Of a stretch of 64,000 nt of DNA, positions 6,659 to 42,470 are shown one piece after another (the first letter of the stretch is position 1; the number at the start of each line of letters is the position of its first letter). This stretch comes from Membranipora membranacea (Eukaryota; Bryozoa; Gymnolaemata; Cheilostomatida; Membraniporidae): contig OU612068.1 of assembly GCA_914767715.1 (NCBI GenBank), positions 27,590,001 to 27,654,000 of the forward strand. The letters run 5' to 3'. The notes beneath the pieces were generated by a model. It was not told the origin of the DNA, searched no databases, and saw nothing but the letters and a program-made list of their open reading frames with translations. The position numbers and the translations under genes were made by a program.

Positions 6659-9600
6659 GACTTGACTTACTTGACTTATGATGCTGAATGTCTCGTGACA
6701 CATAGCGGCTCCCATAACAGCTTCCCAGTTGCTTTCCACTTCTCCCTATCTTTCGCTATATCTGCTGCCTCATTCAAGGTCTTCACACCAACTGTCTTCA
6801 ATCGCTTCATAACCACTCTCCTCCAAGTTTCTTTCGGTCTTCCTGTCAGTCTCTTTCCTTCCGGAGCCCAGCCGAGACTTACAGCCATGCTCGAATCCTT
6901 TCTCCTCAAAGTGTGCCCCAGATATCGCCATCTTCGACTTTCCAGAGTGTGCTCCATCTTGTGTTGCTTGGTTTTCTCAAGAAGATCCTTGTTGGTAGTC
7001 TTATGGAACCATCTCAGCTTTAGTATTCTCTTGGTATACTTTGTTTGGAAGACTTGTAGTTTCTCCATTTGAACTTTAGTGAGCTTCCAAGTTTCACATC
7101 CATAGAGTAGAACTGATATAACATTAGATTTGAAGATCTTAATCTTCAGATGATTGCTAATTGAAGAACTGTTCCAAACCTTTATTAGTCTGTAAAAGGC
7201 CACTGTAGCTTTTCTTATACGCTATGTGACATCACCATCTGGTCCTCCACCCTTGTCTACTTGGCCTCCGTGGTATGTGAACTGTTCAACATACTGTAAT
7301 TCCACTCCATCAACCTTTATGCTAGAAGATGCTGCAGTATGTACTCCAGCCTTTAGTACCTTAGTCTTTTCTTTATTTATCCTCAATCCTATGGCCTTTG
7401 CTGTTTCTGATAGCTGTTCTGTATAATCCTGCATGCCTCTCCAAGTCGTAGCGAAGAGAGCTATGCCATCAGCATAAGCCAAATAATTCAATTTAGTTGT
7501 GAAATTCCATCTCAATCCGCTCCTGTGTTGTGCACTGATCTGTTTCATGATGAAGTCTGTGGCAATTATAAAGAGGAAAGGGGATATAACACACTCTTGG
7601 CGGACTCCTGTCTTGACATCGAACCAAGCTTCTGCTCCCTGTTGCTTCACCGAACCTTTGTAGTTGTCATAAAATATGCGAATGAGACTGATCAACTTGG
7701 TAGGTATGCCGTAGTATACTAAAATCTTCCAAAGCGTGTCTCTATGTAGACTGTCAAACGCTTTACTAAAATCGATAAAATTCACATATAGGGGGAATCT
7801 CCATTCCTGACACTGTTCTAATATATTCCTGAGTGTAAATACATGGTCTGTGCAGCTTTTACCGGCTCTGAATCCTGCTTGCTCGTCATCTAAAATATTC
7901 TGTTCCTCAAATACTGTAGCGATCCTCAGATGAATTATTTTAAGAAATATTTTACTGATTACCGGAGGAAGAGTTATTCCTCTCCAATTATTTGGGTAAG
8001 CTAGATTTTCTTTCTTTGGCAACTTGATGATTAAACCTCTTCTCCAGTCGTCCGGAATATGTTCTTCTCTCCAAATTTTTCCAAAGAGAATATGTAAAAC
8101 GCTAGCAATAGTTTCTGTGTTGCATTGTAGGAACTCGGCTGGTATGTTGTCTACTCCTGGTGCTTTTCCACGCTTTAAACTCCCAATTATTTCAAAAACC
8201 TCTGAGTACATAGGCGGGTCCTCAAAGATATCTAAAGTATTCAGCGGTTCAGGTATGTGTAGATTTACAGAAGGCTCTTCTTGGTTTAATACTGCTCTGA
8301 ATTGGTCTGTCCAAATTTCCGCTATCTTCTCTTGCTCAGTTACCATAGATCCATCTTTATGCTTCAAACTTGCTACTTCTCTTCTTGCTCCACTTGATAG
8401 TTCCCTAGTGATGTCGTAAACTGCTTTCATATTGCCTTTATCGGCAGCATCTTGTGCACACTGAGCTATTGATTCGTAGTAATCTTCTTTATCAGCCTTT
8501 GCTTGTTGCTTAATTCGTTTATTAAGAAGTCTGTACTGTTGCCTAAATGTTGCTTTGATACGTTCAGATTTAGTTGACACAATCTTACAATGCAGTTCCT
8601 GTCTCGAGCCAATTAGATTCCATGTGTTCTCCGACATCCACTTTGCTGGACTCCTTCTTTTCACCTTTCCTAAAACTGATGCTGCAGTATCATCATAAGT
8701 ATCCTTAATATCTGTCCACAGTTCCTCTATCTGCTTGTCGTCTGCTTGATTCAGTAATACTTGAAATCTATTTTCAATTTCACTATTTTCAATTTCAATG
8801 GAGAACTCATCCTTAACATCACTCATCTTCAGCTTTGCTCTGTTCCATGCTGGGTTACTCCTAGTTGATACTGACTTGGCGCAGGATAGTTTGAGATTGA
8901 TGTTGGTTATTACAAGAGAATGATCTGTTGATACATCAGCCGACCTCATCACACGTACATCACTCATAGAGCTCCTCCATTTCATGTTTATAAGTACATG
9001 ATCAATTTGATTCTGATGTCCTGTAGGCGATGTCCAAATAAACTTATGTATATCTTTATGCTGAAATATTATCCCTCCGATGACCATGCCAATGGATGCA
9101 CAGAAATGTGTGAGTAGTTCACCATTTTCATTTTGAGTTCCTTTTCCATTTGTACCCATGAACTTCTCGTAGTGCTGATTATCAGTTCCCACTTTTGCAT
9201 TCAAGTCCCCAATAATGAGAATGACATCATGCTTCGGACACCTTTCACTGATTTCTTGCAGGCGGTCACAAAAACCCGTCTTGGAATCTTCCTTAGCCTC
9301 ATTTGTTGGAGCATAACAGGAGATAACAGAAAGGTTGGTGTATTTTCCTTTGAAACGTGCTGTAACTAGCCTCTCATTAATCGGCTTCCAATCTACTAGC
9401 GCTTGTCGCGCTTTCTTGGTCATAATGATGCCAGTACCTTGATAGTGTAGATTATCAGCTCTTCCAGAATATACCATTGTGTAGCCCTCTTTGAGCTTCT
9501 CTTCTCCGTGTCCTAGCCATCTAATTTCACTTACTGCAAGCACTTCTAATTTAAATCTCTTCATTTCTTTAATCACCTCTTCAACCTTTGAATCCTCTGT

Positions 9601-9946
9601 CATCGATCGCACATTCCATGCGCTGATTCTCAATCCACAACGTGGGGCCAGCAGCACTTTGTCACCGAAATTCTCAGCAGAGCCTTCCCGGGGTAGGCTT
9701 TCACTTCTGCCAGTCATAAATCCATCACGTGTTCGGCATCCTCGGTATCTGTGTCCACCCACAGCAGATTGAGTAGAAAGGGTTCTGTAGTTGTCTGGGT
9801 TTGCTGTCATGTTCATTTCGTTGTCTGTTTGTCATTAACATTTTACGAGAGCAGGTCGACATCTGAAGCTCAACCTTCCTTCTTTATCCGGGCTAAGGAC
9901 CGGCTGCGAGCTGTACTGGCTTGTCCAACCCCCAGGCGAAGTTAAT
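6659..9946 (-). mobile_element. APE-type non-LTR retrotransposon (LINE), nearly full length, inactive
   Basis: The element reads on the minus strand from a GC-rich 5' leader (about 9817-9946) through one long ORF with an N-terminal endonuclease and a reverse transcriptase. It ends in a short (AAGTC)n-like tail rather than poly(A). The 8-bp word TTGTATTT flanks both sides (6651-6658, 9947-9954) and is a candidate target-site duplication. The domain order and the C-terminal GRPKETWRRVV motif fit animal LINEs often mis-annotated as 'craniofacial development protein 2-like'. I cannot assign the clade. Confidence 0.93.
6676..9816 (-). pseudogene. LINE ORF: endonuclease-reverse transcriptase, broken by one TAG
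   Basis: The frame is open from the ATG at 9816 to a TAG at 7222-7224, and resumes in the same frame to a stop at 6676-6678. One nonsense codon therefore splits a protein of about 1046 codons. Residues about 60-320 are an EEP/APE endonuclease (NVRSM, EIRW, GDLNAKVG, IDHVLI, TDHSLV). The reverse transcriptase follows from about residue 570 (NNWRGITL, AGFRAGKSCTDH, FIDFSKAFDSL). The RT active-site box reads YADG instead of YADD, losing a catalytic aspartate, and the usual RQGxxxSP motif reads RQECVISP. Three independent lesions in an otherwise intact frame suggest a fairly recent copy that can no longer move itself. Confidence 0.93.
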
Positions 9947-23631: not shown

Positions 23632-24898
23632 TTAGTGGTAGCCAAATCCGTGTGGTAGTCCACTTTTGTTTCCATTTCCATTTCCATTACCGTTGTTTCC
23701 ACTGCCACGGTTTCCGCTTCCGTTGTTGTTTCCGTTGTTTCCAACTCCGTAGTTGTGGTTTCCATTTTTGTTACCACTGTCACCGGATCCGTAGTTGTAG
23801 TTTCCATTTGTGTTACCATTATCTCCTGATCCGTGGTTGGAGTTGCCATTGTAGTTTCCATTGTCACCAGATCCATGGTTGTGGTTACCGCCGTAATTTC
23901 CGTTATCTCCAGATCCCTGGTTGTAGTTTCCACTTTGGTTTCCGTTATCTCCTGATCCCTTATTGTTGTTTCCACTTTGGTTTCCGTTGTCTCCGGATCC
24001 CTTGTTCTCGTTTCCGTTGGCATTTCCATTGTCTCCCTTTCCGTGGTTGTTGTTTCCGTTCTTATTTCCATCGTTTCCGGATCCGTAGTTGTCATTTCCA
24101 TTCTTGTTTCCATTGTCGCCATATCCGTAGTTCTTGTTTCCGTTGTAGTTGCCATCATCACCAGATCCGTGGTTGCGGTTTCCGTTGTAGTTTCCGTTGT
24201 CTCCGTATCCTACGTTGAGGTTTCCGTTGGCATTTCCATTGTCTCCATCACCGTTGTTCTTGTTACCATTTGCATTTCCATTGTCTCCATAGCCTTGGTT
24301 CTTGTTACCACTGTCGTTACCATTGTCACCATAGCCTTCATTATAATTGCCATTATCATTTCCATTGTCAGGGGTGTCCTTGCCATATCCCTCACTGTGT
24401 TGGTATCCGTACCCCTCATTGTGTGGGTATCCGTCTCTGTGTAGGTGATCTTGTCCATATCCACCATCGTGTGGGTGTCCGTGTCCATATCCGTCATTGC
24501 GTCCGTATCCATATCCGTCATTGCGTCCGTATCCGTACCCATATCCTTCATTGTGTGATTGATATCCGTACACAGGGTAATCTCCATATGTGCTTTGCTT
24601 TCCATGTCCATAAGAATCATATGCTGTCAAGTATAATACAATTGTTCATGTCATAATGAGTTTAACGAACAAAGATAAGACAAGAGTCTTCCCCTCCCCC
24701 CAACATATTTCTCAGTTTTTATGAAGATTTTGCACAGTAAAGAGTTCCATATCATAGGTTTGTTTAGTTCCCTGACCTAAAGTGGTAGCTTTATACCCAG
24801 CAATATTTTTAATCAAAACTGTATGACTATGATGACTTACAAACTGGTGATGCGAGAGCAACCACTGCAAGGCAGGCAAGAGCAATGAGGACCTTCAT
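23632..24898 (-). CDS. secreted Asn/Gly-rich 14-residue-repeat protein A
   Basis: Coding exons 24841-24898 (58 nt) and 23632-24623 (992 nt) are joined in phase 1, giving 349 aa. Exon 1 encodes a signal peptide (MKVLIALACLAVVALASPV) that ends at the splice site. The mature protein starts with about 100 residues rich in His, Gly and Tyr (HNEGYGYGYG, GRNDGYG, GYGHGHPH). It then has 16 complete units of consensus D-N-G-N-x-N-G-N-x-N-x-G-x-G plus a partial unit, and ends SGLPHGFGYH. There is no cysteine in the repeat region. A non-coding first exon ending at 25310 and a TATA box at 25381-25392 lie upstream on the minus strand. The protein is exported and probably structural or matrix-forming; this is inference from composition, and no known family is matched with certainty. 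The repeats leave several other frames open on both strands. Confidence 0.9.
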
Positions 24899-25184
24899 TG
24901 TGACCTGGGAAAAAAAAACATTTAAACATCAAAACATCAATTGAAGTCAGCACTCTTATTGTGATAGTAGCGTAAACTCAAATATGCAATATGGCTGTGT
25001 GTAGTATAGTAATTCTGAATTCTAGATTCTGTATTCTCTCTGTGAATTCTGACCAACTCAGAATTCACAGCAGAACATGCAGAAATAAAAAGGCTGAATA
25101 AGTGATGATAATTTCGACATTGAAAAAATATGAATCCTGTCACTAATTCGCCTTTACCAAGGAATTCTCCTAGCATTCAAGCCA

Positions 25185-25209
25185 GGGCAGGCAGGCAGGC
25201 AGGCAGGCA
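25185..25209. repeat. (GGCA)n microsatellite
   Basis: Six tandem GGCA units in the 5' UTR intron of gene A. Confidence 0.85.
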
Positions 25210-25380
25210 AGAATTTTGATTGCAAAATATTAAATATTGATTCATAGGCAATATTTGACCACACCTGTCAGAGTATAAAAGTGAAAAGAAGAAGCAATGA
25301 TCTGCTCACCTGGTTTGGATTTCTTCGTTCTGTGCAGAAGCTGTGCTGAGAAGAGAATGATTTGAGTTGTGTGAGCTGTT

Positions 25381-25522
25381 CCTTTTTATACGAAAATCTG
25401 ATGAGTTTTAATTAATGACAAGATATAAAATGCGGCAGATGTGGATGTAAATCATTATTCATATCTTCAGATTGATCTTTATGTCACCTCTCGAGCACAT
25501 CCGAAAATATGGACCCATTATG
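25381..25522 (-). promoter_or_regulatory. TATA promoter and conserved upstream block of gene A
   Basis: On the minus strand a TATA box (CGTATAAAAAGG) precedes a first exon containing ACAACTCAAATCATTCTC, and a GT donor follows 25310. Upstream lie TGCCGCATTTTATATCTTGT, CTCGAGAGGTGACATAAAGA and CCATATTTTCGGATG, all shared with genes B and C. The octamer site seen in B and C is ATTTACAT here. Confidence 0.8.
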
Positions 25523-27263
25523 AAAAATGGTCTTCATTTACCAAAAATAGCGGCATTATAAACAAAATGATCAGAGACTAAGATAATGTTCACTCCCAAT
25601 CAAGCATTTCCTTTATCTTAACCAACTTGAATGTAATCGTTTTCATGCCAAAATTCTTCCTGTATTGTTTTAAGTAGTTGAGAGCTTTGTGATGATCACA
25701 TAATAATCATTATACATGATAAATATCTAGTTCCACCACACCTTAAAAATACTTATAATCAATCACACTCTACTGCACTCGATATTGGAGAGAAACCCAT
25801 TTCCTTCACTCACATATCTCGTAACCATCATGTTATATACATACATGGATATCTCAAAATGATCTCACTGGGAATTGCATTGTGGGAATGTGTTGTTCAT
25901 GCCATGTTGCCAGCACACAGAGCAAAACATGGTGCCATATGGTAACAGACATGCCCTTGCCTGTAATTTGTGATTTTCATGAGATACAAATGCAAACGCA
26001 ATTATTACTCGATTTCCTGATCTAATCACACCTCTTTATTGCCCTCCCCTTCCCCTCAGTCCTCCTATACCTTTGATAGGTTCTCTCAACAGCTTTGCAT
26101 TTAACTCACAATTTTCAGTAATCTCCCAATAAGTCATAAACCTAGGGTGTGGCCTTTGTTTTATGAGGTCCGAATTCAACAGCCAGCACCAAATGTTATT
26201 CCTGAATTTTTACAGGCGCTCCGTATATTCACGCCAGGTCCTTGCAGAGAGGGATTGAAATCACAGAGGTTTTTCCGTGTGTTTGCATCCCCTACACACT
26301 GTTAAAAGCTCAGCCACTAAACCTCTTTCCTATATCAAGTGAAGCTGGAATTGTATATGATTGAATATGGCGCAGCTTATGTACCACAGATGCCAGTAGT
26401 TGTACTCTAGGACTCTTCTCTGTACGTTAAAGACTTGGCTTAGTCATAAACTGAACATATCCCCTCTGTATTTAATAAAAGCCAGTCTTTTGGGACCATG
26501 TTATCCCTCATTTACGTCCACTAAACATATACAGCTTCATATGTTGATTTATTCTTTTAAACCAAATTTTACCAGCCTTACTTGATCATGTAAGACAATG
26601 TAATGGGCGTTGAAACCCAGCAGGCAGTATGATAGATTTACTTTTAAATATTTACAATTCATGCAGAACTAATGCTATGACATTAGTTTGTGGAGAGCAC
26701 ATTCTTATAAGCCTTTAAAATTATGTTGGTTTTCAATTCAGGTATTTTAGTAGGAGGCTATTCATTTTTATGATCCAGGATACAGATGTTCAGTTTCAAT
26801 TGTATGAGATCAATAAAGGATATAATGGTACAAAAATTGACGACAATGCTGATAAAGCTCAAAATTATGATTTTTACAAACAAATCTGACAATGACTTCA
26901 GCTGGACTAAGAATGGTTTACCTATTTCCTAGAAGTAGTGTGATACCACTATATGGTTACGCCGTACGATACAAATGAATCAATGTAGTACCAGGCCCTT
27001 ACTGGAGGGATGCGGTTGGCACATTTTTGTAGGATCTGAGGATTTTCTTAATAAAATCTTTCCTCAATAAAATCATTCAGATGAGTATCAATCCAAAACA
27101 TATTGATATATTCTAGTCTTGACCAACACCATTCAGCTTTACCGCATATACAAGCTCTAGCTATTTATAACAACTACACAGTTGACATGATTTTCAAAAT
27201 GGCTACAATGAGATACAGCCGAGTTTCTATAGATGAGCTGCCAGGAAAATAGAGACCACATAT
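25523..27263. other. intergenic region between divergent genes A and B
   Basis: About 25563-25830 continues the similarity to the DNA upstream of gene C (36372-36625), including CTAGTTCCACCACACCTTAA and CCCATTTCCTTCACTCACAT. The duplication unit for A and C was therefore larger than the gene. No coding exon is seen in the rest. Confidence 0.65.
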
Positions 27264-27390
27264 ATGGAGTCAGCATTTTGTAGTCTATATGGTTTCTGCT
27301 CGATAATGCAATGGAGGAAAACTACCACAAATATTATCTAGCTGACGAGCAGATGCATCCGTCTCCTGTAGCCTCCTGGTTAGGTAACTA
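27264..27390 (+). pseudogene. relic of the SLC5A first exon
   Basis: It starts ATGGAGTC like the SLC5A start at 11752. After an internal deletion it carries AATATTATCTAGCTGACGAG and a CAGATGCAT..CCTGTAGCCTCCT..TTAGGTAA segment that matches the end of that exon and its splice donor. The frame is broken and no further SLC5A exon follows. It is a decayed duplicate about 15.5 kb from its source. Confidence 0.8.
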
Positions 27391-27894
27391 CTTGGACATC
27401 AGATAATTCATGTTAATGAAAATTTCAAACTTTAAAATGGTCACAATGAATCAATGTGGCTGTAACATCACTATTATCATGAAGAAATTTTCAATATTTG
27501 GATTCACTATCAAGACTTGCCGATATTACCTGTTCATGATTTTGAAGTTATGTGGAATTTTCAAGTCTATACAGAGCTCCTCTCGAAATTCACCCTTGTG
27601 ATCAATAACTATGTAAGTTTAGAGGCAGCTGGCCGGGTGAGGTAGCAGCTGCAGCGTCAGATGGGCGACAATGTTCTCTTATATGTCTGATCGAGAGGAG
27701 AACACTCATTGATTAACAAAGCATATAATCACTATGTAATATTCTTGAACAGGTGTAATATTATTTCTATGAATTATAATTTTTCAACTCAACTTTGGCA
27801 CAATAGTGAGACACACATTTTAGGGTACAATTATTTTAATCATCAATCATTTTGTTTCCTAGACCGCTATTCCTGTTTAACAAAGATTACCTGT

Positions 27895-28044
27895 CATAAT
27901 GGGTCCATATTTTCGGATGCGCTGGAGAGGTGACATAAAGATCAATCTGAAGATATAGTGATGATTTGCATCCCCTTCTGCCGCATTTTATATCTTGTCA
28001 TCAATTTTGACTTAGTTGAACCCATCAGATTTTCATATAAAAAG
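27895..28044 (+). promoter_or_regulatory. TATA promoter and conserved upstream block of gene B
   Basis: CATATAAAAAGG surrounds the TATA box at 28036-28041. Upstream are an exact octamer ATTTGCAT (27964-27971), TGCCGCATTTTATATCTTGT and CCATATTTTCGGATG. The first exon is non-coding, starts near 28065 and ends at 28118 before a GT donor. The coding exon begins at 28449. Confidence 0.8.
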
Positions 28045-28454
28045 GACTGGCTCACACAACTCAAATCATTCTCTTCTCGTCCCAGCATCTGCCTACAGAA
28101 CGAAGAAATCAAAAACAGGTGTGCAACTTTACTGTTTCTTTTCATCAATTTTAGATGCTGATTTTGATCTTATGCTTCAATAAATGCTACTTTTTACTAC
28201 ATGCTCAGTTATACATAATTTTAATGTTTGGAATATTGTTAATGAAAGGCTAGTAATCATGCGATAGAATTCATGAATTTTCTATCGTTGAAATTTCATT
28301 ATACATTCAGAAGTTTCAATTTTATATTTGATGTGCAGAGAGTTATGCGTATATAGGTATATGCACTAGGAAATATTACATGAAGAACATTACCTATCAC
28401 TGATGTTATATATATTTAAATAACCTTAATTTTTTGTTTGTTCCTCAGGTCACA

Positions 28455-29839
28455 ATGAAGGTCGTCATTGCTCTCGCCTGCCTTGCAGTGGCTGCTCTTG
28501 CATCACCAGTTTGTAAGTGATTATCTTAAAAATGTTTAGATTGTAGTTAAACATTTTTCATGTTTTCTATAGTCTCTGCGCAAGTCCAGTATATCTGTAT
28601 ATCCTTCCTATATAATTGATAATTGATAAATACGCAACAACAAGATCTGCCGACTTGGATTGTGCGAAGAAAAATATAAAAAAAAACAATGCGGTATAAT
28701 TACCCGACCACTCGTTAACCGCAGATGATATGAAGACTTCTCTTATCTTATTACCTTTTTTACCATTTTTTCCTCCATATGGCATGACGATGAGATAATC
28801 TTTTTACAAATTGACAGCATATAATTCGTACGATGGACATGGAAACCCACATACACACGGAGATTACCCTGTGCAAGGATATCAATCACACAATGAAGGA
28901 TACGGATATGGGTACAGACACGGACACAATGAGGGATACGGACGCAATGACGGATACGGACACGGACACAATGACGGATACGGGTACAGACACCCACACA
29001 GTGTTGGATATGGACAAGAACACCCACACCATGGCGGATACCCACACAATGAGGGGTATGGTTACCAACACAGTGAGGGATATGGCAAGGACACCCCTGA
29101 CAATGGAAATGATAATGGCAACCATAACGAAGGCTATGGTGACAATGGTAACGACAGTGGTAACAAGAACCAAGGCTATGGAGACAATGGAAATGCAAAT
29201 GGTAACAAGAACAACGGTGATGGAGACAATGGAAATGCCAACGGAAACCTCAACGTAGGATACGGAGACAACGGAAACTACAACGGAAACCGCAACCACG
29301 GATCTGGTGATGATGGCAACTACAACGGAAACAAGAACTACGGATATGGCGACAATGGAAACAAGAATGGAAATGACAACTACGGATCCGGAAACGATGG
29401 AAATAAGAACGGAAACAACAACCACGGAAAGGGAGACAATGGAAATGCCAACGGAAACAAGAACAAGGGATCTGGAGACAATGGAAACCAAAATGGAAAC
29501 AACAATAAGGGATCAGGAGACAATGGTAACCAAAGTGGAAACTACAACCAGGGATCTGGAGATAACGGAAACTACGGCGGAAACCACAATCATGGATCTG
29601 GTGACAATGGAAATTACAACGGAAACTCCAACCACGGATCAGGAGATAATGGTAACACAAATGGAAACTACAACTACGGATCTGGTGACAATGGTAACAA
29701 AAATGGAAACCACAACTATGGTGTCGGAAACAACGGAAACAACAACGGAAGCGGAAACCGTGGCAGTGGAAACAACGGCAATGGAAACGGAAACGGAAAC
29801 AAAAGTGGACTACCACACGGATTTGGCTACCATTACTAA
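28455..29839 (+). CDS. secreted Asn/Gly-rich 14-residue-repeat protein B
   Basis: Coding exons 28455-28512 and 28818-29839 are joined in phase 1 (359 aa). The signal peptide is MKVVIALACLAVAALASPV. The N-terminal His/Gly/Tyr-rich region is longer than in gene A (extra HGHNEGYGRNDGYGHG-type units). It is followed by the same 16 complete 14-residue units in the same order and the tail SGLPHGFGYHY. The gene is inverted relative to A and C, and A and B are head to head. Differences from A and C in the repeat region are single residues only, and no repeat unit is gained or lost. Function is unknown; an extracellular matrix, mucus or adhesive role is inference from the signal peptide and composition. 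Confidence 0.9.
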
Positions 29840-30004
29840 TCCTGATCACAAACAAATTTCAACTCACTACACTTTGCTCGACAAACTGACTGCAGTGTTT
29901 CTGCATTAGTATTGTAGTTATTACTACTTTTATCAACACAGATAAATTATTATTGTTGCTTCATCTGGACTGTTATGTTTGTTTTCTATATATAAGTTTA
30001 AAGA

Positions 30005-30014
30005 AATAAATAAA
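30005..30014 (+). promoter_or_regulatory. poly(A) signal of gene B
   Basis: Two overlapping AATAAA hexamers in the context AATAAATCATGCAATAG, about 165 bp after the stop and shared with genes A and C. Confidence 0.7.
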
Positions 30015-33000
30015 TCATGCAATAGTTCAATAGGTTGGATACCATATTCATGAAAATGTTAGGATTATGTTTGGGACTAGTGAGTTACAAACATATCCTG
30101 ATACATATGTGTGAAATTCAAATTATAACCACAGGGCAGCTATAATTTCCCATTGTTCTAACAATTTTAGATCATTCATGGCAAGTCATGTCACCAGCAG
30201 AATTTCCCAAAAAATAGCAAATAAGCAATATCTAACAGAGAAATTTCCATTTCACACTTTCTTAGCAAGTTGAGCACAATGCGCAGCCATCTTTGATTGT
30301 TCTCAGAATGCAAAAAAAAAGAAGGTGGACATAAAAGCTCAAAAATTTGAGGGAATGGACCCAGTTGCCCCAAAAGAGGGGTGAAACCCCCCCCCATATA
30401 ACAAAGCTAGTCAAGACATGCTAGCGTGGACATGGTAGTGAGCTGATTGACCGCAGTATGTAACTTATTCGATGACTGAATTGACATCTACTGCTATGCG
30501 TTTTTAATCCACAAGAGTGTGCTGAGAAATGTTATCAACATGGAGCAATCAGGATTGGTTGTAAGGAAAAGACTCACTAGACAACTTTTGACTCTGTCGT
30601 CTTTGCTATTTAAACTTTCAGTTGTCTCTCCGCAAACACTAGACTAAAATTCTGCTGCAAATATGTATGATCAAAACACACTAGAGCTAGACCTTTCTGA
30701 GCAGCAGAATAATTCTTTTTTTTTAACATTTTATTGACAACAATCTTCATCATTTGAATGTGTTCTTCTGAATGTGCCAGAGGAAGCAAAACAATAAAAT
30801 AATAAAAATGTAAGCCATAGACCGCGTTTGCCTTTATACATAAAAAATGATATATGAATGTGTGCTGTCTGAATTCTTTCAGACCTGATGTGTTGTGGAA
30901 GGCTATTGAATACAATTGAAAGATTGCAAAGAAAAGTGTTTGAAGGGGGTTTCAAGATATGTGTGTCTCTCATTGGAAATCGATGTATAGGAAAAGAAAA
31001 CTGCTCTCAAATATAATCTGGAGTCAACATATTGAGAATCTTATAGCCGTTGTGGCAGAGAAATGACTGGCAAGCTGGGGCAAGGGGAGAAGATTTAAGG
31101 ATCTTGTTTTGGAATGAAATGTGCATAGACGATAAACCTAAAAGCCCACTTCTGTAGAAAAATTAATGGATTTGTTAAATGAAAAGGGTCGACGTTATGT
31201 TATAGTAAATATGAATACCATAGATTCGGTAACAAATAATGAAATGATGGTAAAAGGTCATCACCGCTTTCCTTCCTTCGTATTCAGAGCATCCCATAAC
31301 GATTTCTCATTATGTGGCTCACTATCTTTTACTAGATTCTCCATTTGCAATTTCTTATCTAACGCATCAAGTTTGTCACAAGATTTCTTTTAAATGCGTG
31401 TTGTGAGATGGAATGAGTTGTCCTCTCCCAGATAGAAGGGACACAAATTCCAAAAGTTGCTTAACGCCGAGCTTAGGTTGAAGAAATGGAAACAAAAGCA
31501 CACACATAATAAACATATAACATCAAGTTTGACCATGTGATAGGAACAAATATAGAATTCAGAATTTTGACAATTTTTATAATATGGTGTTTCCATTTAT
31601 TACGGCTCTGCATTTAACTTTCAATATTACCAGTGATGTTAGCTATTTATAAAAATACCTTGCCACTTCAGGCACTTCACATGTTAATCCATTGTTTGCT
31701 ATTTTCTTGCCCTCCAGTACTTTAGTGCGCTAAAAGTGTGGGGGAAGAAACTGTCATTTTAGATACAATCTACATCTTCAAAAGACCGAATGTTAACAAG
31801 GATTAGTCTGTTTTAAAGCTGACACGACCGGGGCTTCATTGCCTATCGGGCAGTTTTCTGCCCTTATACCTCCTACGGCGTCAGTCAAGGCGTGGTAACT
31901 ATAATGTTAACTCTCCACGACTACTTCTACTACTTCCCTACAGTTACCCTCTATACAGACAATCTATATGAAAAATCAACTTCACTAGAATCTCATACAA
32001 CATGCATAACTTCCTCATGACATATTGTTTCATATAAACATTTTATTTCTTCATGACATGTTGTTTCATATAAAAATTTTATTTCTTCATAACGTGTTGT
32101 TTAATATAAACATTTCATTTTGTCACGCTAGTGACAATTAAACAAATATGTAAAATCATAAATACTTCAACTAATTACTCAATCCAAATATGTAAAGCAA
32201 AATGACCGGTGCGCATACAGTTTCTACAAAAATTCAACATATTCATAATAAACATATTCAACGGCAATAAACCAAATGTGGCAACCCAAACACCTACAGG
32301 CACGAAGGGTTTCATTCCCATCAGGACGGTAGGACACCCCTATAAATAGTCATTTACGGACGAGGGGCTAAATACGTTGGCATTCAATTGTCACTTCATT
32401 TATTCCTGTCAATATAAATCTAATTATTAAAATACAAAGGCGTACACTCGCCAGTACCTTACAACATCCTCATCACTATCAAATGGACCATATTTCAATA
32501 TTAGGATAATAACATTATCCTTGAACAAAATTACTTGTTTTAAAACACAGCCAAAAAAATAAATTACACACCAGTCATTAAGCTAACATTTTTTATTTTT
32601 GCTACTGCATTCAATATTTTATTGTTATTCATAATATGCCTGCAAACAGAGGCTTTTTCTGAACTATTATAAATCTGTACACAAAAATGAAAAAATACTA
32701 ACTATCAAGTGATAAATAGAAAAAAAACATTTGTAGATATACCAACAGCTATTGAAATCACAACAGAACCTCCTAGTAGCATGAAGCCTGGATGGCCATC
32801 TGAAATAAGAGCAAAAAGAAAACCCGTTAGCTCTGTAACAGACAAAGAACCAGTCGAGCATTACACCACTGCATCTGATGATGTTCTTATCACAACAATC
32901 CCAGCACAGATACTGGCTGACAGAAGAGGAGTAGGAAGTGACGGGATCTTCTTTGTTGTACTCATTGGTGTTCCTTTTGTTCCTTTTCCTTTGAATCGAT

Positions 33001-34169
33001 CACCTCAAAAGCACAGAGTATAAATCTGCCTACTTTGTAGCGCTGCTGACATCTCTTTTTCCTGTCACATAAATTCACAGTTCGGCCAGCATCTAAAAAC
33101 CTGAATATAATGTGTTGAAGTTTCTATCACATATTAGTTAATAAACATCAGATATTACAATAGCTACTAAATATTGCTCAGATGCAGTCAAGGTTTGGTG
33201 TTTGCTGATTAGTTTCATTGAATTGAAGATTGCAAAACCTGATTGATAATTTACAGACGCTCCTGGTTCTTGTGGCTGTGTTCATCGTGGATGAAGTTCT
33301 TTGAAGAAGAAAATACACTCAAGTAGCCTACCCAGACAGATAGACGTTCATAAAGCAGCCATTTTATTTCTCCCAATATTTTGGGCTCAATCAAAGCCTG
33401 CTTATTATACCTTAGACAGACAGGGTAAGTGAGCGCTGAAACTGGCAAAGTATTTTACTTTAAAATAGTTGATATTTTTGTTTGATGTTATTTGTGTCTA
33501 TGATCTCCTTAGTTTGTTCAGGTTTGGTTAAGCGTATTTATCACTATTACTTAGTCGGCAGTAATATTTTCTGTTCATTTTTTCTGTGAAACAAAACTAT
33601 GAAAAATATGTATTGCAGGAAAAAATTATAATTTATACATCCTACATGATAATGCAAATATGAATAATATGATTTGTATTGATTACAACATTTAATTGTG
33701 GAATTAGAAATAAAAACACGACAAAATACATGGAGTTAAAGTGAAGCAACACAAAATATTTGACGCAACCTGAAGTACTTTAGGTCTTGTACAACGGTAC
33801 GTAGGCAGCTGTTGCTATATCGTGTAAGAATCAATCCTATTGCTTGCTTAGTGTTTTGATCATAGCTGTTTGGATGGAGAGCAATATTTGCTAAGATGAA
33901 ATCGGAAAATAAAACCTCAATATGCTGTATATTTACTTTTTATGTTGATTCCCTGCAGGTCACATGGCATGCCATGATATATTGAACATTAATTCATTTA
34001 AAGTCAGCTGCCACTGCAATACGCTTCAAGGGATACGAAAATTGGTCTGTGAAAGAAATCTGAGCTCATTTACAAATGTCATGAATTATTTTGGCTCAGA
34101 ATATTATTTTTGCAATAGCCCCAAGCATAATCGAATTCGTTTTTTGACTTATTTTATACTATTGCATGA
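30015..34169. other. intergenic region between genes B and C
   Basis: Mostly AT-rich with no spliced gene model. The one stretch that looks coding is about 32700-32960 on the minus strand: hydrophobic, glycine-rich residues (SVTELTGFLFALISDGHPGF, MLLGGSVVISIAVGIS) with an in-frame TAA. It may be a relic of a multi-pass membrane protein, but I could not place it. Confidence 0.5.
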
Positions 34170-34175
34170 TTTATT
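34170..34175 (-). promoter_or_regulatory. poly(A) signal of gene C
   Basis: AATAAATCATGCAATAG on the minus strand, about 165 bp after the stop codon, identical in context to genes A and B. Confidence 0.65.
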
Positions 34176-34341
34176 ATTCAAAACTAGAAAACAAACATAA
34201 CAGTACAGATGAGGCAACAATAATAATTCGTCTTCATTGTAGTAGCAAAATAAGATAGCGTAACAATAAATATTTCATATAATACTGCTTGTTCATCGCT
34301 GTTTCAGTTTGACAAGCTTAGTGTAGTGTCTTGGATCAGGA

Positions 34342-35816
34342 TTAGTGGTGGTAGCCAAATCCGTGTGGTAGTCCACTTTTGTTTCCGTTTCCGTTTCCAT
34401 TGCCGTTGTTTCCACTGCCACGGTTTCCGCTTCCGTTGTTGTTTCCGTTGTTTCCGACACCGTAGTTGTGGTTTCCATTTTTGTTACCATTGTCACCAGA
34501 TCCGTAGTTGTAGTTTCCATTTGTGTTACCATTATCTCCTGATCCGTGGTTAGAGTTTCCGTTGTAGTTTCCATTGTCACCAGATCCATGGTTGTGGTTT
34601 CCGCCGTAGTTTCCGTTATCTCCAGATCCCTGGTTGTAGTTTCCACTTTGGTTACCATTGTCTCCTGATCCCTTATTGTGGTTTCCGTTTTGGTTTCCGT
34701 TGTCTCCGGATCCCTTGTTCTTGTTTCCGTTGGCATTTCCATTGTCTCCCTTTCCGTGGTTGTTGTTTCCATTCTTATTTCCATCGTTTCCGGATCCGTA
34801 GTTGTCATTTCCATTCTTGTTTCCGTTGTCCCCATATCCGTAGTTCTTGTTTCCGTTGTAGTTGCCATCATCACCAGATCCGTGGTTGCGGTTTCCGTTG
34901 TAGTTTCCGTTGTCTCCATATCCTACGTTGAGGTTTCCGTTGGCATTTCCATTGTCTCCATCACCGTTGTTCTTGTTACCGTTTGCATTTCCATTGTCTC
35001 CATAGCCTTGGTTCTTGTTACCACTGTCGTTACCATTGTCACCATAGCCTTCATTATGGTTGCCATTATCATTTCCGTTGTCAGGGGTGTCCTTGCCATA
35101 TCCCTCACTGTGTTGGTATCCGTACCCCTCATTGTGTGGGTATCCGCCTTGGTGTGGGTGTTCTTGTCCATATCCAACACTGTGTGGGTGTCCGTACCCG
35201 TATCCGACATTGCGTCCGTGTCCGTATCCGTATCTGCCATTGTGTCCGTGTCTGTACCCGTATCCTTCATTGTGTGATTGATATCCGTGCTCAGGGTAAC
35301 CTCCGTATGTGTTTCGGTTTCCATGTCCATAAGAATCATATGCTGTCAATTAATAAAATAAATTTTTCAAATCACCATTTCCTATTGAAATAAAGGTATC
35401 AAGATAAGATACAAGTCTCAGCAGGCGGTGAGAGAATAGACTGCAATGTCTTATCATAGTTTTCTTTGCATATATTGACGTTGGCAGCATCCACTCGCTT
35501 ACATATAAAGTTTGATAAAAATGTCACATAGTAGGATGAACAGAACTATACGAGACTTGTGTGGTTCTGTCATTCCAAAGAAAAAAAAGGGAGATCAGCA
35601 AAATTTAAGAGAACTCTTTTGAACAGTTCATTTTAATGTTGCAGTGTGTAAATGTCAATATGAGTACACCAATGCTGTTGTGATGAATTAAGACAGGTCT
35701 AGCCTGCCTCATACTAAGCAATATTTATAATAAAAACTGTATGACTATGATGACTTACAAACTGGTGATGCGAGAGCAACCACTGCAAGGCAGGCAAGTG
35801 CAATGACGACCTTCAT
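34342..35816 (-). CDS. secreted Asn/Gly-rich 14-residue-repeat protein C
   Basis: Coding exons 35759-35816 and 34342-35342 are joined in phase 1 (352 aa). The signal peptide is MKVVIALACLAVVALASPV. The N-terminal region has GYGYRHGHNGRYGYGHG-type His/Gly/Tyr units. The 16 complete 14-residue units follow in the same order as in A and B, ending SGLPHGFGYHH. The non-coding first exon ends at 36148 and a TATA box lies at 36221-36230 (minus strand). The promoter and first exon resemble those of gene A most closely over their full length. Likely exported; role unknown. Confidence 0.9.
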
Positions 35817-36220
35817 TGTGACCTGAGGAACAAATAAACAAATCATGAGATCATTGCAGCAGTCATTATTTCACAGATATACAATACAATATGACCATGT
35901 GACAGTCATTCTGCACCAACAACACAGAATTGAAATTACTGGATGAGTGAATAAAACTTCAACGATTGGCCCGAACTGAAGAAATTTTCATACAGCCAAA
36001 TTATAGGTAAAAGAAGTGAGCTTACAGTAACAGTAGAATTTAAACCAGCACCAATACATTCAAAAACAAATAGAGGATAATATATTGAAATATAAAATCA
36101 TTTTCTGTGTCATAAAATTAAAGGAACAAAACCAAAAAGTTGCTCACCTGTTTTGGATTTCTTCGTTCTATGCAGATGCTGTGCTGAGAAGAGAATGATT
36201 TGAGTTGTGTGAGTTGTTCC

Positions 36221-36349
36221 TTTTTATATGAAAATCTAGTGGGTTACCAAGAAGTCTAAATTAATGACAAGATATAAAATGCGGCAGAAGGGGATGCAAA
36301 TCGATTGATTGATCCTTATATCACCTCTCGAGCACATCCGAAAATATGG
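36221..36349 (-). promoter_or_regulatory. TATA promoter and conserved upstream block of gene C
   Basis: On the minus strand CATATAAAAAGG is preceded by TGCCGCATTTTATATCTTGT, an exact octamer (ATGCAAAT on plus at 36294-36301), CTCGAGAGGTGATATAAGGA and CCATATTTTCGGATG. The order and spacing are as in genes A and B. Confidence 0.8.
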
Positions 36350-39197
36350 TGATCGTAGCCAGCATTAGAAACAAAAAGATCAGAGACTTAGATAATATCC
36401 ACTCCCCAGTGAAGCATTTCCTTTATCTTACCCAAAATGGTCGCATCATTTTATGCCAAATATTTGCTGGTATTGTTTTATATACATAAGTGCTCTGTCA
36501 TGATCACATAATAATCATGGTAAATATCTAGTTCCACCACACCTTAAAAATACTTATAATCAATCACACTCCACTGCACTTCCATCAGCTAAAACCCATT
36601 TCCTTCACTCACATATCTGCTAGCAAATCTTTGAGTTCAATAATTGTACAAAGCACATTTAGACATAAACACCTGAAGAATGGCATGCCTTCCAAGTTTC
36701 TGGCTGCCTGCTCTGATACAACGGCTTCTAAGTTTTTGTAATCACTTGACTTTTTTGGCAATTAATGAAAATGTACCAAAATCCCCTCCACTAAAAGGTA
36801 GAATGTACTCAAAGTTTGTTTCCATGATTTTGTGGGTTGATGAATATTCCGTAATGATAGTACATGTACGAGGTATCTGATTAATAAAGTAGTTAAGTCA
36901 GCCTATCTTAAAATAATAAAGAAAGCTGAGGGTCAGCTAAACCAAATTCATAAATTATTTCCTCACAATCAGTAAGCCAATCCTAAAATTGAATATTAGT
37001 GCATTTAATCGCATCCTGTTCCTCAGTTTTAGTTTTTATATTTTACCCTCTCTATCTTCCATTTTGGTTTCCTCTCTTTCCTCACACTATTAATTGCAGT
37101 CGGCAGCAGCAGAGGAGCAGCAGCAGCCAGAGGAGCCTCTCTCTCTCTCTCTTCTTGGCTGTCTCCCGATTCTACCTATCCTAACACAAGGTAGTCTGAG
37201 CCCCCAGACCCTGCCCTCCCCTCGCCCAGCGCTTTTGGCTTGGCACCAGTATTGATTGTTGGTTATTACGTGAATATATTATATCATTTAGTATATTTTT
37301 AAATGTACAGAGGATAAACAGGTCAGTTAAATCAACATTTATAGTCAGTTTGTCTGGTACTGAATAACCGATCCTTCAGTCACTGCTAGCAGACCCATAC
37401 CCTTCTCCCCTGGCAGTAGTTATACATCATGCTCTCTGGGTATCTTACACACAGTTCCAAAAACTTTGCTTCAAGTGAAAGTTTCTAGCTTTTGAATTCT
37501 GAATTCATTTTTACTCAGACTTTCAAAAATAGTGTGGTAGTTTTACAGTTTATTGGCTCAGCACCATTCCTCAATGGCTTTCAGTAAGGGTTTATATTGG
37601 TACATGCACTCTCATTATTTTGTTTGTGGACGATTTTCGTCGGGGTGCTTTCGCAAAATCCATATTGCCTACTGCTTAATATAAGCAAATCATTATTTAT
37701 TTCGAGCATTTCTTTCTCGCTTATTGTGAAAATGAGGTGAGAATAGAAATTATCACATAATATAGTAATTGTGTCTATGATAGCAGAAGGTGTCACTGGA
37801 AGTTTAATGTAGAGATTAAAAGTAAGATACTGGCAGCTTAGAAATACCAGAGCCGTGCTAATAAAGATTGAATTGATTAACATTATTGTTTTACGGCATC
37901 TTATCTTTTAATAGCTCTGTGCCAGGTCTGTTCGTAAACTATTCCGTGTCAATAACCCGCATGCAATATGAAATTCCCATCTGCCCGGCTTTACTTAAGT
38001 GTGCAAAGTTGACGTTCGTTTTGTGAGGGAGACAAATCCAGACTTTTTCGTGGAGAGCAGTTTTAAGAGGTATAGTTGATAGAATATTGTCCTTCCTTTA
38101 TACAAGAGGAAACAAATCTCATCACATTTCAAAGGGTCCTTATTATTGAAACTTCTACTGATAAGTAAACGCTTACACATCTTAGATCACTTTCATCAAG
38201 CGGGTTTGCGTGCGCCCTGATCTGAATTTGCATCACATCATATATTAAAAACTGTGTAGTTATAAGTAAGTCATTGAACTGGAAAGCTATGTATTTTGGG
38301 TAATAAATTACTTTTATTGGTTGAACAAAGGACCGTCACATACAATCCATAAGTCAAGTAGCAAAATCAAAAGTACAGCTCACATACTAGATCAAATCTG
38401 TGTTCAATTTTGAAGTTCTGTCTTTCTGTTTCATTTGAAAAATTTCACCTTTCAACGACATCTCTGTCACCAGCTTTTCAAAAACTATCTCAGAAGTTCC
38501 ATAGCAACACTTTCAGACAATAACATATTCCCAGAATACACTTTTGTACTATGTTATTTATGCATGGTTAGCAAGATAGACAATTACATTTTAAATATTA
38601 AATATACCACACATGAACCATAAATCAATTTTTTGACGATTAAGAACAAGTTTCTATAGAACAATTACTTGTTGCATTCATTTTTGGATTTGAAGGATAT
38701 TTCAGACATTAGTCGGATCAAAAAATTGAGTGAAAATCTGATCGCTCTCTAAATCATCATTGCTTTCAGGGACCATCGAGTTAAAAGACGTGTAAGTGTT
38801 AATATATGGTAGCTACAGTGCATACTTCATCCAAATACTAGTGCTGTGAGCACACAATTGGTAGACACAATGGTACTCTTATAGAGATGTGGCAAACTTA
38901 TTCTACCAAACCTGCCGAATACTGTTCGGGCAAACTTGCTACCTGTTCTACTGCTTGAAGCTACCCTGCAGTTATTGTCCACCCCTGTTATAAAAGAGGA
39001 TAACTTCAGACCACTGAACTCAATGCTTCAGACACAGACCCTCACTATATGAATTCACTTGCATGTATTGTGAGAAAGAAAAAATGAGTACAAATAATGA
39101 GTGCATTGCAATAATAGAAAAAATAACAACTCAGGAAAGCTTGTTGAATATTTATGTTTTATACGAGAGTGCCTGGCACAGACTGGTTGTTGACTAA
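36350..39197. other. intergenic region between genes C and D
   Basis: About 36372-36625 is the extended duplication shared with the DNA upstream of gene A. A CAG/CTCT-rich low-complexity patch lies at about 37100-37160 and a copy of the dispersed GC-rich motif at about 37191-37225. No exon is recognised. Confidence 0.6.
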
Positions 39198-39258
39198 CCA
39201 ATGTCCAGCTCTGATTGGTTGGGATCCTCAACCCAGCCAATCAGAGCCGACACGTTGG
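39198..39258. repeat. inverted repeat containing two CCAAT/Y-box sites
   Basis: Arms with AGCTCTGATTGGTTGGG and CCCAGCCAATCAGAGC flank an 8-bp spacer. Each arm carries an inverted CCAAT box (ATTGG/CCAAT). It lies just beyond the stop of gene D. Confidence 0.75.
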
Positions 39259-39290
39259 CTATGCTTTGACACAAATATAGCATAAGCGAT

Positions 39291-41867
39291 CTAGTGCATA
39301 TTAAGCAGTTGACTGAGTCTGCTGTGTGATAGTTTGTTATTTTCATTGCCATTTCCATTACCATTTCTACCAGACCCGTGATTACCGTTTCCGTTTCTGT
39401 TTCCGATATCTCCGCCATCTTCATTTCCATTCCCGTTTCCGTTTCCATTGTCACCCGTTCCGCTGTTTTTATTTCCATTTACGCTTCCGACATTTCCGCT
39501 TCCATTTCCACTGTTTGTGTTTCCGTTTCCGTTCCCGCTGTTTCCTGCACCTTTGTTTCCATTTCCATTTTTGTTTCCGATGTCTCTGTCGCCTTGTTTC
39601 CCTGCCTGATCATTATCGTTACCGTTACCATTTCCGTTGTGTCCAGTTCCATCATTTTTGTTCCCATTTTTGTTTCCATCATCTGTGTTTCCAGTGTTTC
39701 TATTACCATTTCCGTTTCCGTTGTGTCCGTAGCCAGAATTTTCATTTCCATTTGTGTTACCATCATCACTGTGTCCATAATTCTCATTACCATTTGTGTG
39801 TCCGTTATCGCCTGACCCATGATTTTTGTTTCCGTTGCTATTACCCTGGTTTCCAGATCCGATATTCAGATTCCCGTTTGTACTGCCATTGTCTCCCGAT
39901 CCATGATTGTAGTTTCCATTTTTATTACCGCGGTTTCCATCTCCCTTATTGATGTTTCCGTTCTCACTTCCATTGTCACCTGTTCCACTATTATGATTTC
40001 CATTTTGATTACCGCCGTTTCCATCTCCACTGTTCAAGTTACCATTGGTGTTTCCGTTGTGACCTGTGATGAAAATATTTTCACAATAATTCACAATTTA
40101 TTCTCTACAAGGTGTGTTGATTATGATTATCATAGAGCTATAAGAGTTATCTTTCACATTGTTGTGTCTGAGGGTTATTGAGTGGCAGGATAAGACCCGA
40201 ACAAGAAAAATTCTTACTCTAACTCCTTGACTAGACTATCTGCAATAAAAAGCGGTGTCTATCAACTATACAAGAGACACACAAAGGGAGGACCCACCTT
40301 TGCCTGAATTGTGATTTCCATTTTGGTTTCCAGAATCACCAGGGCCATCGTTTTTGTTACCGTTTCCGTTGCCATTATACCCATATCCGGTGTTATGTCC
40401 TCCGTTACTGTTTCCATGATCACCTGACCCATTATTGTCATTTCCATTCTTATTTCCATTTTCTCCAGGACCCGTGTTATAATCGCCATTGTCATTACCT
40501 GCAAAATGCGAGAGTGTGGTATGAATTTGATGATGTATTTTTATCAAACAATATTATGTAAATTTGATCTGCTTTTGATCAGATAGACCAAATTGAAATC
40601 AGCCACAAATCTGCCAACTTGGTCTCCATTCAGAATTCAATGAAGCAATAACTTTGCAGTTTTTGAATGTTTCTTATGATAGAGTTGAAAAAGTTGATAT
40701 ACTACCCTACCATTATCCCCAGAGCCAGAGTTTCGGTTGCCATTGTGATTGCCATCATCACTGATGTCAGCACCGTGGCTGTGATGCTCTGACTCGGACT
40801 GGTATGTCTGTTCCTTGGTATGTTCTCTTGTGTAGCCAACAGAAGGTTGATGGGGATGGTATTCCTCAGCACGGCCATCTCGGTAGTTTGATGGTGTGTC
40901 TCTTTCATCATGATAGTCTATTGCCTTCAAGTCTACATCTAAATCACATAACATCCGGTATACATGAAAATAGTAAGTACATAAGAATGGACCTAATAAT
41001 CAAATGATTTATCGCTAGTGTAAAGAATCGTTAAAGAAAACACCGTCTACTAAATATTGGCATCCACTGTGCAATGTTTATCGAGGGAGTTATCAATCCC
41101 TCAACTGTGAAAAGTATACTCTGAAGTAATTTGAAAGCACCAAAATACATATATCTGAATTCACTAACACTGGAACAAGGCATATCGGTAAATTATGTGT
41201 TTCTTGGAGCAAGAGTAAAGCTGTTGGAGGTAGTTAGATGTTTTCAGTTTGTCGGGGTTATTTACGAAAGGAAGACAGGACAAATAAGAACTTCATGTCA
41301 TATTATAAAAAATTTTGTAACATGACAAAGTATGCGCACATAAATCGATTAACATATATATTTATACATAATATATTTATACATAATATATATTTATACA
41401 TAATATATTTATACATAATATATATTTATATATAATATATTTTGGCATCTGGAAATATATTAGGGTGATGGTGGGAGGGGGGGGGGCTATGACCTCTGTG
41501 TCATTCGCTTCTGTTGGTTGTGTTACATTAAACCAAAGTTGAGAAGTTGATCAATAACCACTAACATCTATCTACTTCAGTTATGTTTGAAAATACACTT
41601 GATCCATTATTACATTAGAAAACCAAAACACTTACCGAAATGGTAGACGGGAGAATGACTGCTGTAGCTATTTTCATAGCCATAGCCTATGTTCCTTGGA
41701 GAGCCAAACCAAGAGGCGAAGTAATAACTACTGGGATAATATTTGTCATTATTGTAGCCTTGATATCCCTGAGGATGTTGAGGGTAGCTAGTGTACTCCT
41801 CGTGTGTGCAGCTGACCAGTGATGTGGCAGCAGCCACCACCGAGAATATCATAATCTTTGCACTCAT
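39291..41867 (-). CDS. secreted Asn/Gly-rich 14-residue-repeat protein D (divergent member)
   Basis: Four coding exons, 41636-41867, 40711-40938, 40298-40498 and 39291-40063, all joined in phase 1, give 1434 nt (477 aa). The N-terminus is a signal peptide (MSAKIMIFSVVAAATSLVSC), then a Tyr/Pro/Ser-rich stretch (YPQHPQGYQGYNNDKYYP) and a His/Glu-rich stretch (SESEHHSHGAD). Repeats begin at the end of exon 2 (DDGNHNGNRNSGSG) and fill exons 3 and 4. They follow the same 14-residue consensus as A-C but are much more diverged, with one interrupted unit (QAGKQGDRDI). Introns fall between repeat units in the same phase, so units could have been added by exon duplication. A TATA box (plus 42081-42086) and a short non-coding exon ending at 42026 lie upstream. 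The last exon ends KLSHSRLSQLLNMH, unlike A-C. Function is unknown. Confidence 0.85.
41345..41445. repeat. AT minisatellite (TATTTATACATAATA units)
   Basis: Tandem repeats of about 15-17 bp built from ATATTTATACATAAT, in intron 1 of gene D. Non-coding. Confidence 0.8.
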
Positions 41868-42025
41868 TCTGAAACCAAATTAACAGACCTCAGCAAAAGT
41901 GACATAAGCTTCATCAATACCTAAAATGTCAGCCGTTGTTATGTTGCTGTTAGCTGGTAAAAATTATTATTGGTAGCTGGGTAGCTTCAATGATCTGACA
42001 TGACAATAGAAGCAAGATGTCTTAC

Positions 42026-42086
42026 CTGTATCTGGGTATGAAGTGTTTGGAAGTGTCATTTTGAGTGCAGCAATCAAGACTTTATA
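42026..42086 (-). promoter_or_regulatory. core promoter and non-coding first exon of gene D
   Basis: On the minus strand a TATAAA (42081-42086) is followed about 30 bp later by a short exon ending in CAGATACAG at 42026 before a GTAAG donor. The acceptor adjoins the ATG exon at 41868. Confidence 0.6.
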
Positions 42087-42470
42087 GTTGGCGTTTGATA
42101 AAATCAAAGCATTGCACCGGCACATAACGGTCGCTCACTTGGCTGAGTGGTTCTCAATCTCAATCAGCGCCCAGGCCCAGAGACAGTCATATTATTTGGC
42201 AGCAGCGCACCACTTTCTCATATTTTTAGTAACATTAAATTAATGACCAATGTACAAATCAGAGATGTTTATCAACCCTTGTCAGAAATTAGCGATGCTC
42301 TAATGTGTATAAAGAAAATTTCTAGATAAAATAGGAAACATTGTGAAAGTCGTTAACATAAAAGAAACATAAGGATAGAATGCAGAGTGAGGCTTATGTC
42401 TCCATCCATTAAAATTAGTGTAGATGGAACAGATAGGCATTATGAAACAAAATTCTCAAGATGCTCTTAA

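Follow-up and report, generated by a model that had tools for sequence, protein, structure and literature searches.

Predicted secreted proteins built from a 14-residue Asn-Gly-rich repeat unit form a large family in the bryozoan Membranipora membranacea

The window analyzed here is a stretch of 64,000 nucleotides of the Membranipora membranacea genome (C4:27590001-27654000; the genome comprises 339.3 Mb in 18 contigs, one of them mitochondrial). It carries four genes, A, B, C and D, whose putative secreted products are built from a 14-residue unit, [D]NGNxNGNxNxGxG. A six-frame reading of the window together with a gene-model script located all four where an earlier sequence-only reading had placed them, between 23632, the end of the stop codon of A, and 41867, the A of the ATG of D. 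That reading had described each protein as a signal peptide, a His/Gly/Tyr-rich or Tyr/Pro-rich leader and at least 16 repeat units, and the gene models bear this out. The spliced products consist of 349 (A), 359 (B), 352 (C) and 477 (D) amino acids, and the six introns interrupting the coding sequences are all in phase 1. Splicing, TATA boxes and untranslated exons are readings of the sequence, and the signal peptides were called by hydropathy and by eye. The features are as follows.

23632..24623, minus strand: gene A exon 3 (coding part), leader and 17 repeat units; the stop codon ends at 23632
24841..24904, minus strand: gene A exon 2, MKVLIALACLAVVALASPV, with a phase-1 donor
25310..25390, minus strand: gene A TATA box (starts 25390) and proposed untranslated exon 1 to its donor
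28036..28118, plus strand: gene B TATA box (starts 28036) and proposed untranslated exon 1 to its donor
28449..28512, plus strand: gene B exon 2, MKVVIALACLAVAALASPV, with a phase-1 donor
28818..29839, plus strand: gene B exon 3 (coding part), leader and 17 repeat units
34342..35342, minus strand: gene C exon 3 (coding part), leader and 17 repeat units
35759..35822, minus strand: gene C exon 2, MKVVIALACLAVVALASPV, with a phase-1 donor
36148..36228, minus strand: gene C TATA box (starts 36228) and proposed untranslated exon 1 to its donor
39291..40063, minus strand: gene D last exon (coding part), main repeat array and C-terminal LSHSRLSQLLNMH
40298..40498, minus strand: gene D third coding exon, repeat units
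40711..40938, minus strand: gene D second coding exon, acidic/His leader and first repeat unit
41636..41868, minus strand: gene D first coding exon, signal (MSAKIMIFSVVAAATSLVSC, ATG at 41867) and Tyr/Pro-rich leader
42026..42087, minus strand: gene D TATA-like box (CTATAAAGT, starts 42087) and proposed untranslated exon to its donor

Genes A (minus strand), B (plus) and C (minus) share one plan. A TATA box and a proposed untranslated exon are followed by a 64-base exon with the ATG, encoding MKV[VL]IALACLAV[VA]ALASPV, then by a phase-1 intron and a single long exon, which encodes a His/Gly/Tyr-rich leader of 85-94 residues, 17 units of 14 residues and a short tail. Gene D (minus) has a similar plan but four coding exons, joined in phase 1 throughout. 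Its leader is Tyr/Pro-rich and then acidic and His-rich, and its units are distributed across three exons.

The 17 units of A, B and C are contiguous, the last being degenerate (16 units under a stricter unit-core pattern), and D contains 21 recognizable unit cores that become irregular toward its 3' part. We counted 481 unit cores in 36 open reading frames (ORFs), namely the four window genes and the ORFs of the related loci L009-L031 described below, fragments included, against a mean of 13.7 and a maximum of 24 in 50 within-protein shuffles. The repeat is therefore not due to chance, with a contrast to the shuffles that is somewhat inflated because the ORFs had been selected for at least four NGN. 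Successive cores lie exactly 14 residues apart in 368 of 445 cases, 13 apart in 19 (mainly in the protein at C11:13.81) and 28 apart in 18. The residue frequencies across 480 full units are partly built in by the search pattern (three Gly fixed, position 4 restricted, three of four Asn required), except at positions 1, 2 and 14 and the variable ones: Gly occupies positions 3, 7 and 12, as the pattern requires, and position 14 in 84%, while Asn is found at position 2 in 69%, position 4 in 96%, position 6 in 85%, position 8 in 91% and position 10 in 98%. Position 1 is most frequently D (40%) or N (17%), and positions 5, 9, 11 and 13 vary, mostly among polar or small residues. The variable positions are thus all odd and the Asn positions all even.

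Gly and Asn make up 61-65% of the arrays of A-D, and the low complexity noted earlier is supported. Mature A, B and C each contain 11 residues of the set V/I/L/M/F/W/A, out of 331-341, and no Cys; D, counted from residue 19, contains one Cys. The repeats of A, B, C and D hold 30, 32, 32 and 46 NG dipeptides, respectively, or 1.7-1.9 per 14 residues. The arrays of A-C are acidic, with a net charge (K+R-D-E) of -8 to -10.

The repeat arrays of A-C are under strong constraint at the protein level, and their leaders evolve faster. In the repeat region the synonymous divergence (dS) is 0.162 for A-B, 0.171 for A-C and 0.112 for B-C, and the nonsynonymous divergence (dN) is 0.007, 0.009 and 0.003 for the same pairs. 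The corresponding leader values are 0.289, 0.118 and 0.155 for dS and 0.109, 0.097 and 0.068 for dN. This gives a dN/dS of about 0.03-0.05 in the repeats versus 0.38-0.82 in the leader. Since the fixed Asn and Gly positions are encoded by mixed synonymous codons, the constraint acts on the protein. Across A, B and C, units in corresponding positions show 96.9% DNA identity, whereas different units of one gene show 69.2%, which indicates that whole arrays were duplicated and then held. Identity between A, B and C is 85-93% in blocks spanning the signal exon and 88-93% in those spanning the last exon, and the similar, TATA-containing upstream blocks (283-529 columns) are 77-80% identical. In the introns of these three genes no aligned block exceeded 60 bp, whereas gene C and a fifth gene at 27.774 Mb align at 83.7% identity across the intron that precedes the repeat exon.

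The four genes had been presented as a cluster of four, which holds for the window but is only a local view of the genome. Searches of the genome at E<=0.001 returned 69 matches with gene C as the query and 78 with a member on C11. We combined all 69 gene C rows with 10 rows elsewhere from the C11 query, dropped 4 of these 79 (two of low identity with 8 and 31 internal stops, and two of 22% and 35% identity) and merged same-strand rows within 2 kb into one locus. About 55 related loci resulted, with 25 on C4, 20 on C11, 7 on C10 and 3 on C1. No stop lies inside any match in 49 of the 55, which is not proof of intact genes, and the counts are lower bounds. The gene amplification suggested by the sequence-only reading therefore extends far beyond what it claimed. 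The proposed export also gains support: besides the signal-like exons of A-D, a scan for a hydrophobic start and a phase-1 donor in the upstream regions of 13 further members found a clear signal exon in 11, with C4:27.693 ambiguous and one member showing no signal exon of its own. In the sequence around part of the loci, leaders and tails vary by cluster and the unit remains constant. The group at 26.1-26.3 Mb, for example, has a leader PAPGPFNG... and a tail ...LNKLIAQRSGGY.

Loci L009-L017 (C4:26.11-26.26 Mb) form a dense cluster with long arrays, in which several ORFs of 436-446 amino acids, some nearly identical, are interspersed with broken copies. Locus L023 (C11:13811466-13814081) is an open frame of 872 residues with a PTTTQPP-rich linker and mostly 13-residue units, and is the longest member seen.

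Outside the genome the unit matches no family in the libraries searched, and no description of it was found in the literature searched. Pfam gave no match at E<=1 in the repeat exon of gene C or in the last and signal exons of D. Five further family members had no Pfam match above the curated cut-off and one sub-threshold hit (E 0.0043). Together with our open-licence literature searches, these Pfam results for C and the two D exons agree with the earlier statement that no described family has exactly this unit. A literature search on adhesive glands returned nothing, and one for short strings of the unit led to a single relevant paper, on pearlin. A protein search was run against a database of 5.8 billion proteins, in which only the 7994 candidates sharing most words were scored, so that absence elsewhere is not demonstrable; low-complexity corrections also weaken any search with repeat arrays. 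Among these candidates gene C had one hit, P0002, and an alignment including P0002 had seven hits at E<=10. P0002, P0003 and P0004 (source 'lgn') contain, by eye, the same 14-residue unit as A-D, but differ in a Cys-flanked insert and a basic tail common to all three; relative to P0002, identity is 43% for P0003 and 41% for P0004. P0003 shares 313 of 317 residues with the locus at C4:27.693 Mb, which lies some 39 kb outside the window, and hence probably derives from the same species as this genome or a sister species.

Another hit, P0007, combines a signal-like start and NGN-rich runs with a Cys-rich end; by eye this end resembles a chitin-binding domain, although Pfam gave no match to the protein at E<=0.1. 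P0008, which looks like a secreted bacterial protein, has units of 13 residues (NGNxNGNxNVGxx) that come close to the 14-mer of the animal. A search of viral contigs gave 99 pattern matches, none of which was confirmed.

The family resembles known secreted bulk proteins and belongs to none of the families tested. A predicted signal peptide, a low-complexity tandem repeat and clustered paralogues are found together here, as in the secreted multigene repeat proteins of silk, shell, byssus and cuticle-like materials. We propose, with a probability of roughly 0.6, that A-D are members of a large family of secreted structural proteins made in bulk for an extracellular material such as a coating, tube, fiber, capsule or gel. 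The bulk extracellular material suggested by the sequence-only reading thus stays the best inference. After export, cross-linking or binding might fall to the Tyr/His-rich leader, and the Asn/Gly array, almost devoid of hydrophobic residues, would be a water-loving scaffold. Two states of the array are conceivable: a disordered gel former, or an extended beta-roll that turns at the Asn-Gly pairs (positions 2-3 and 6-7) and points its Asn side chains to one side. Silks, byssus and shell matrix are examples of secreted repeat proteins behind many materials, and each new repeat code adds a building rule. The unit described here is strict, full of Asn-Gly and nearly without hydrophobic residues; in A-C it has hardly changed, whereas the leaders attached to it have diverged. 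If the array folds, it offers a design template; if it does not, it would allow a test of the deliberate use of unstable Asn-Gly sites.

An AlphaFold2 (AF2) model of most of gene C exon 3, built with three relatives from the window, had a mean predicted local distance difference test score (pLDDT) of 56.9, rising to 70-78 in its central part. Most of its strands fall at unit positions 9-13 and 4-6. Many of the 50 Foldseek matches listed are GlmU, LpxD/LpxA and BpaC entries, which we take to be beta-solenoids or beta-rolls. A phmmer search of the array against PDB sequences at E<=10 returned only BpaC 7o23 (E 1.5e-6), 3ult (E 0.34) and 3s6l (E 0.72), that is, two YadA-like heads and one ice-binding protein. 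The 7o23 alignment is gapless over 172 residues; its E-value is that of the whole sequence, and the bias is 55.7 for a domain of 27.6 bits. Both 7o23 and the ryegrass protein 3ult have repeats of a similar period, but they are a bacterial trimeric adhesin and a grass protein with motifs of their own, and the score is composition-biased. The YadA/Hep_Hag Pfam repeats of YadA-like heads do not appear at E<=1 in the repeat exon of gene C or the last exon of D. The residue pattern and the weak models suggest a possible 14-residue beta-roll. A tentative extension, which we regard as improbable as a whole, is that the unit represents a new animal structural fold: a beta-roll without a hydrophobic core, with Asn ladders at even positions, Asn-Gly turns and a variable surface at positions 5, 9, 11 and 13, in a family that grew to about 55 loci to supply chemically distinct versions of one secreted material.

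Several results weigh against the proposal of a bulk structural family and its beta-roll. The AF2 model of the array alone was worse than the first (pLDDT 46.2), with the same strands in its later part and almost no strand in the first 60 residues. Foldseek returned 86 PDB matches at E<=10, none at E<=0.001, with a best E-value of 0.34. AF2 has been reported, in the excerpt of the source available, to invent beta-solenoids for repeats (PMC11795689). No homologue of the leader was found among 1631 candidates, and the role suggested for the leader is for this reason a guess from its composition. In addition, 6 of the 55 loci carry a stop inside the match. This last count, like the long frames that are also open on the opposite strand, would fit low-complexity DNA or a repeat expansion with no protein function. 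We consider that explanation scarcely credible: the repeat dN/dS of 0.03-0.05 largely refutes it for A-C, the synonymous codons at fixed Asn and Gly positions are mixed, and splice sites, signal exons and upstream blocks are kept in the three genes.

Among the alternatives that grant the proteins a function, a role as biomineral matrix proteins is unlikely but the most plausible; the Asn/Gly array would do what the NG domain does in nacrein, N66 and pearlin, and would either hold Ca2+ or restrict the growth of crystals in a shell or other mineral. The acidic arrays of A-C are consistent with this, and Gly/Asn-rich domains recur in the mollusc shell proteins nacrein, N66, pearlin, the Lottia Gly/Asn-rich protein and Haliotis GAAP, as far as the cited excerpts describe them (PMC6599672, PMC7677314, PMC3374290). 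Nacrein had been named as the nearest precedent, with the remark that A-D lack a carbonic anhydrase domain. The likeness holds in that nacrein and N66 are described in part of the source as secreted, with a long Asn/Gly-rich repeat domain (PMC6599672), and it extends no further. Nacrein and N66 carry carbonic anhydrase domains, whereas none was found in the scanned exons of C and D, and none of the 22 carbonic anhydrase matches in the genome lies on contig C4 (the control of this search was positive in 1 of 14 control genomes). We rejected identity with nacrein on this absence from the contig and on a repeat of 14 residues rather than the Gly-Xaa-Asn tripeptide of nacrein and N66. N16, N14 and pearlin are likewise secreted and Gly/Tyr-rich with an NG repeat domain, but the longest NG domain named in the excerpt has 20 residues, and they have four short acidic regions and conserved cysteines (PMC7677314). 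Mature A-C contain no Cys, which speaks against membership in pearlin/N16. Lottia Lotgi1|239447 and Haliotis GAAP share a Gly/Asn-rich region in shell proteins distinct from nacreins; the former differs in that its residues 41-105 are 55% Gly and 28% Asn and precede a Cys domain, and a 14-residue unit is not mentioned in the portion of the source available (PMC3374290).

The abundance of NG dipeptides, up to 46 in D, also fits an idea that we rate as slightly less probable than a mineral role, namely that the arrays are disordered and chemically unstable on purpose, with 30-46 Asn-Gly sites per protein deamidating after secretion so that charge rises with time. Asn-Gly is known for its instability and is the pair fastest to deamidate, and a study of 'hyperunstable matrix proteins' reportedly proposed deamidation with time for mussel byssal thread matrix proteins. 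Asn-Gly is also a favored beta-turn pair, however, and a turn could protect it. The byssal thread matrix protein TMP-1 is secreted and rich in Gly, Tyr and Asn, and the Tyr-rich leader of A-D recalls byssal chemistry. Identity with TMP-1 was rejected, since the consensus given in the excerpt available is GYGYGNYGYGY (PMC6474901) and not NGNxNGNxNxGxG. Far less probable than either is an ice-binding or antifreeze-like beta-roll. Ryegrass 3ult is present among the sequence matches (E 0.52 and 0.34) and the Foldseek matches (E 2.4), but these E-values are not significant. Hydrophobic residues are nearly absent in A-C, and the ryegrass motif, Asn-x-Val-x-Gly, differs from the unit.

The analysis also recorded other features of the window and the genome. 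A long interspersed nuclear element (LINE)-type retroelement occupies 6676-9831 (minus strand), with a reverse transcriptase (RVT_1, E 5.9e-32), an endonuclease-like N-terminus and a DUF6451 piece in the adjoining frame. At 2759-3868 (plus strand), two open frames of 120 and 132 amino acids resemble exons of an ordinary large gene and have no Pfam match above the curated cut-off. A search for the arthropod RR cuticle domain gave no genome match, but its control was positive nowhere. Contig 18 is the mitochondrial genome, with 14,741 bases and genes on both strands in a rearranged order. By eye for the protein genes, one strand carries cox3, nad1, atp6, nad6 and the large rRNA, and the other carries cob, cox2, nad3, nad5, cox1, nad2, nad4L and nad4.

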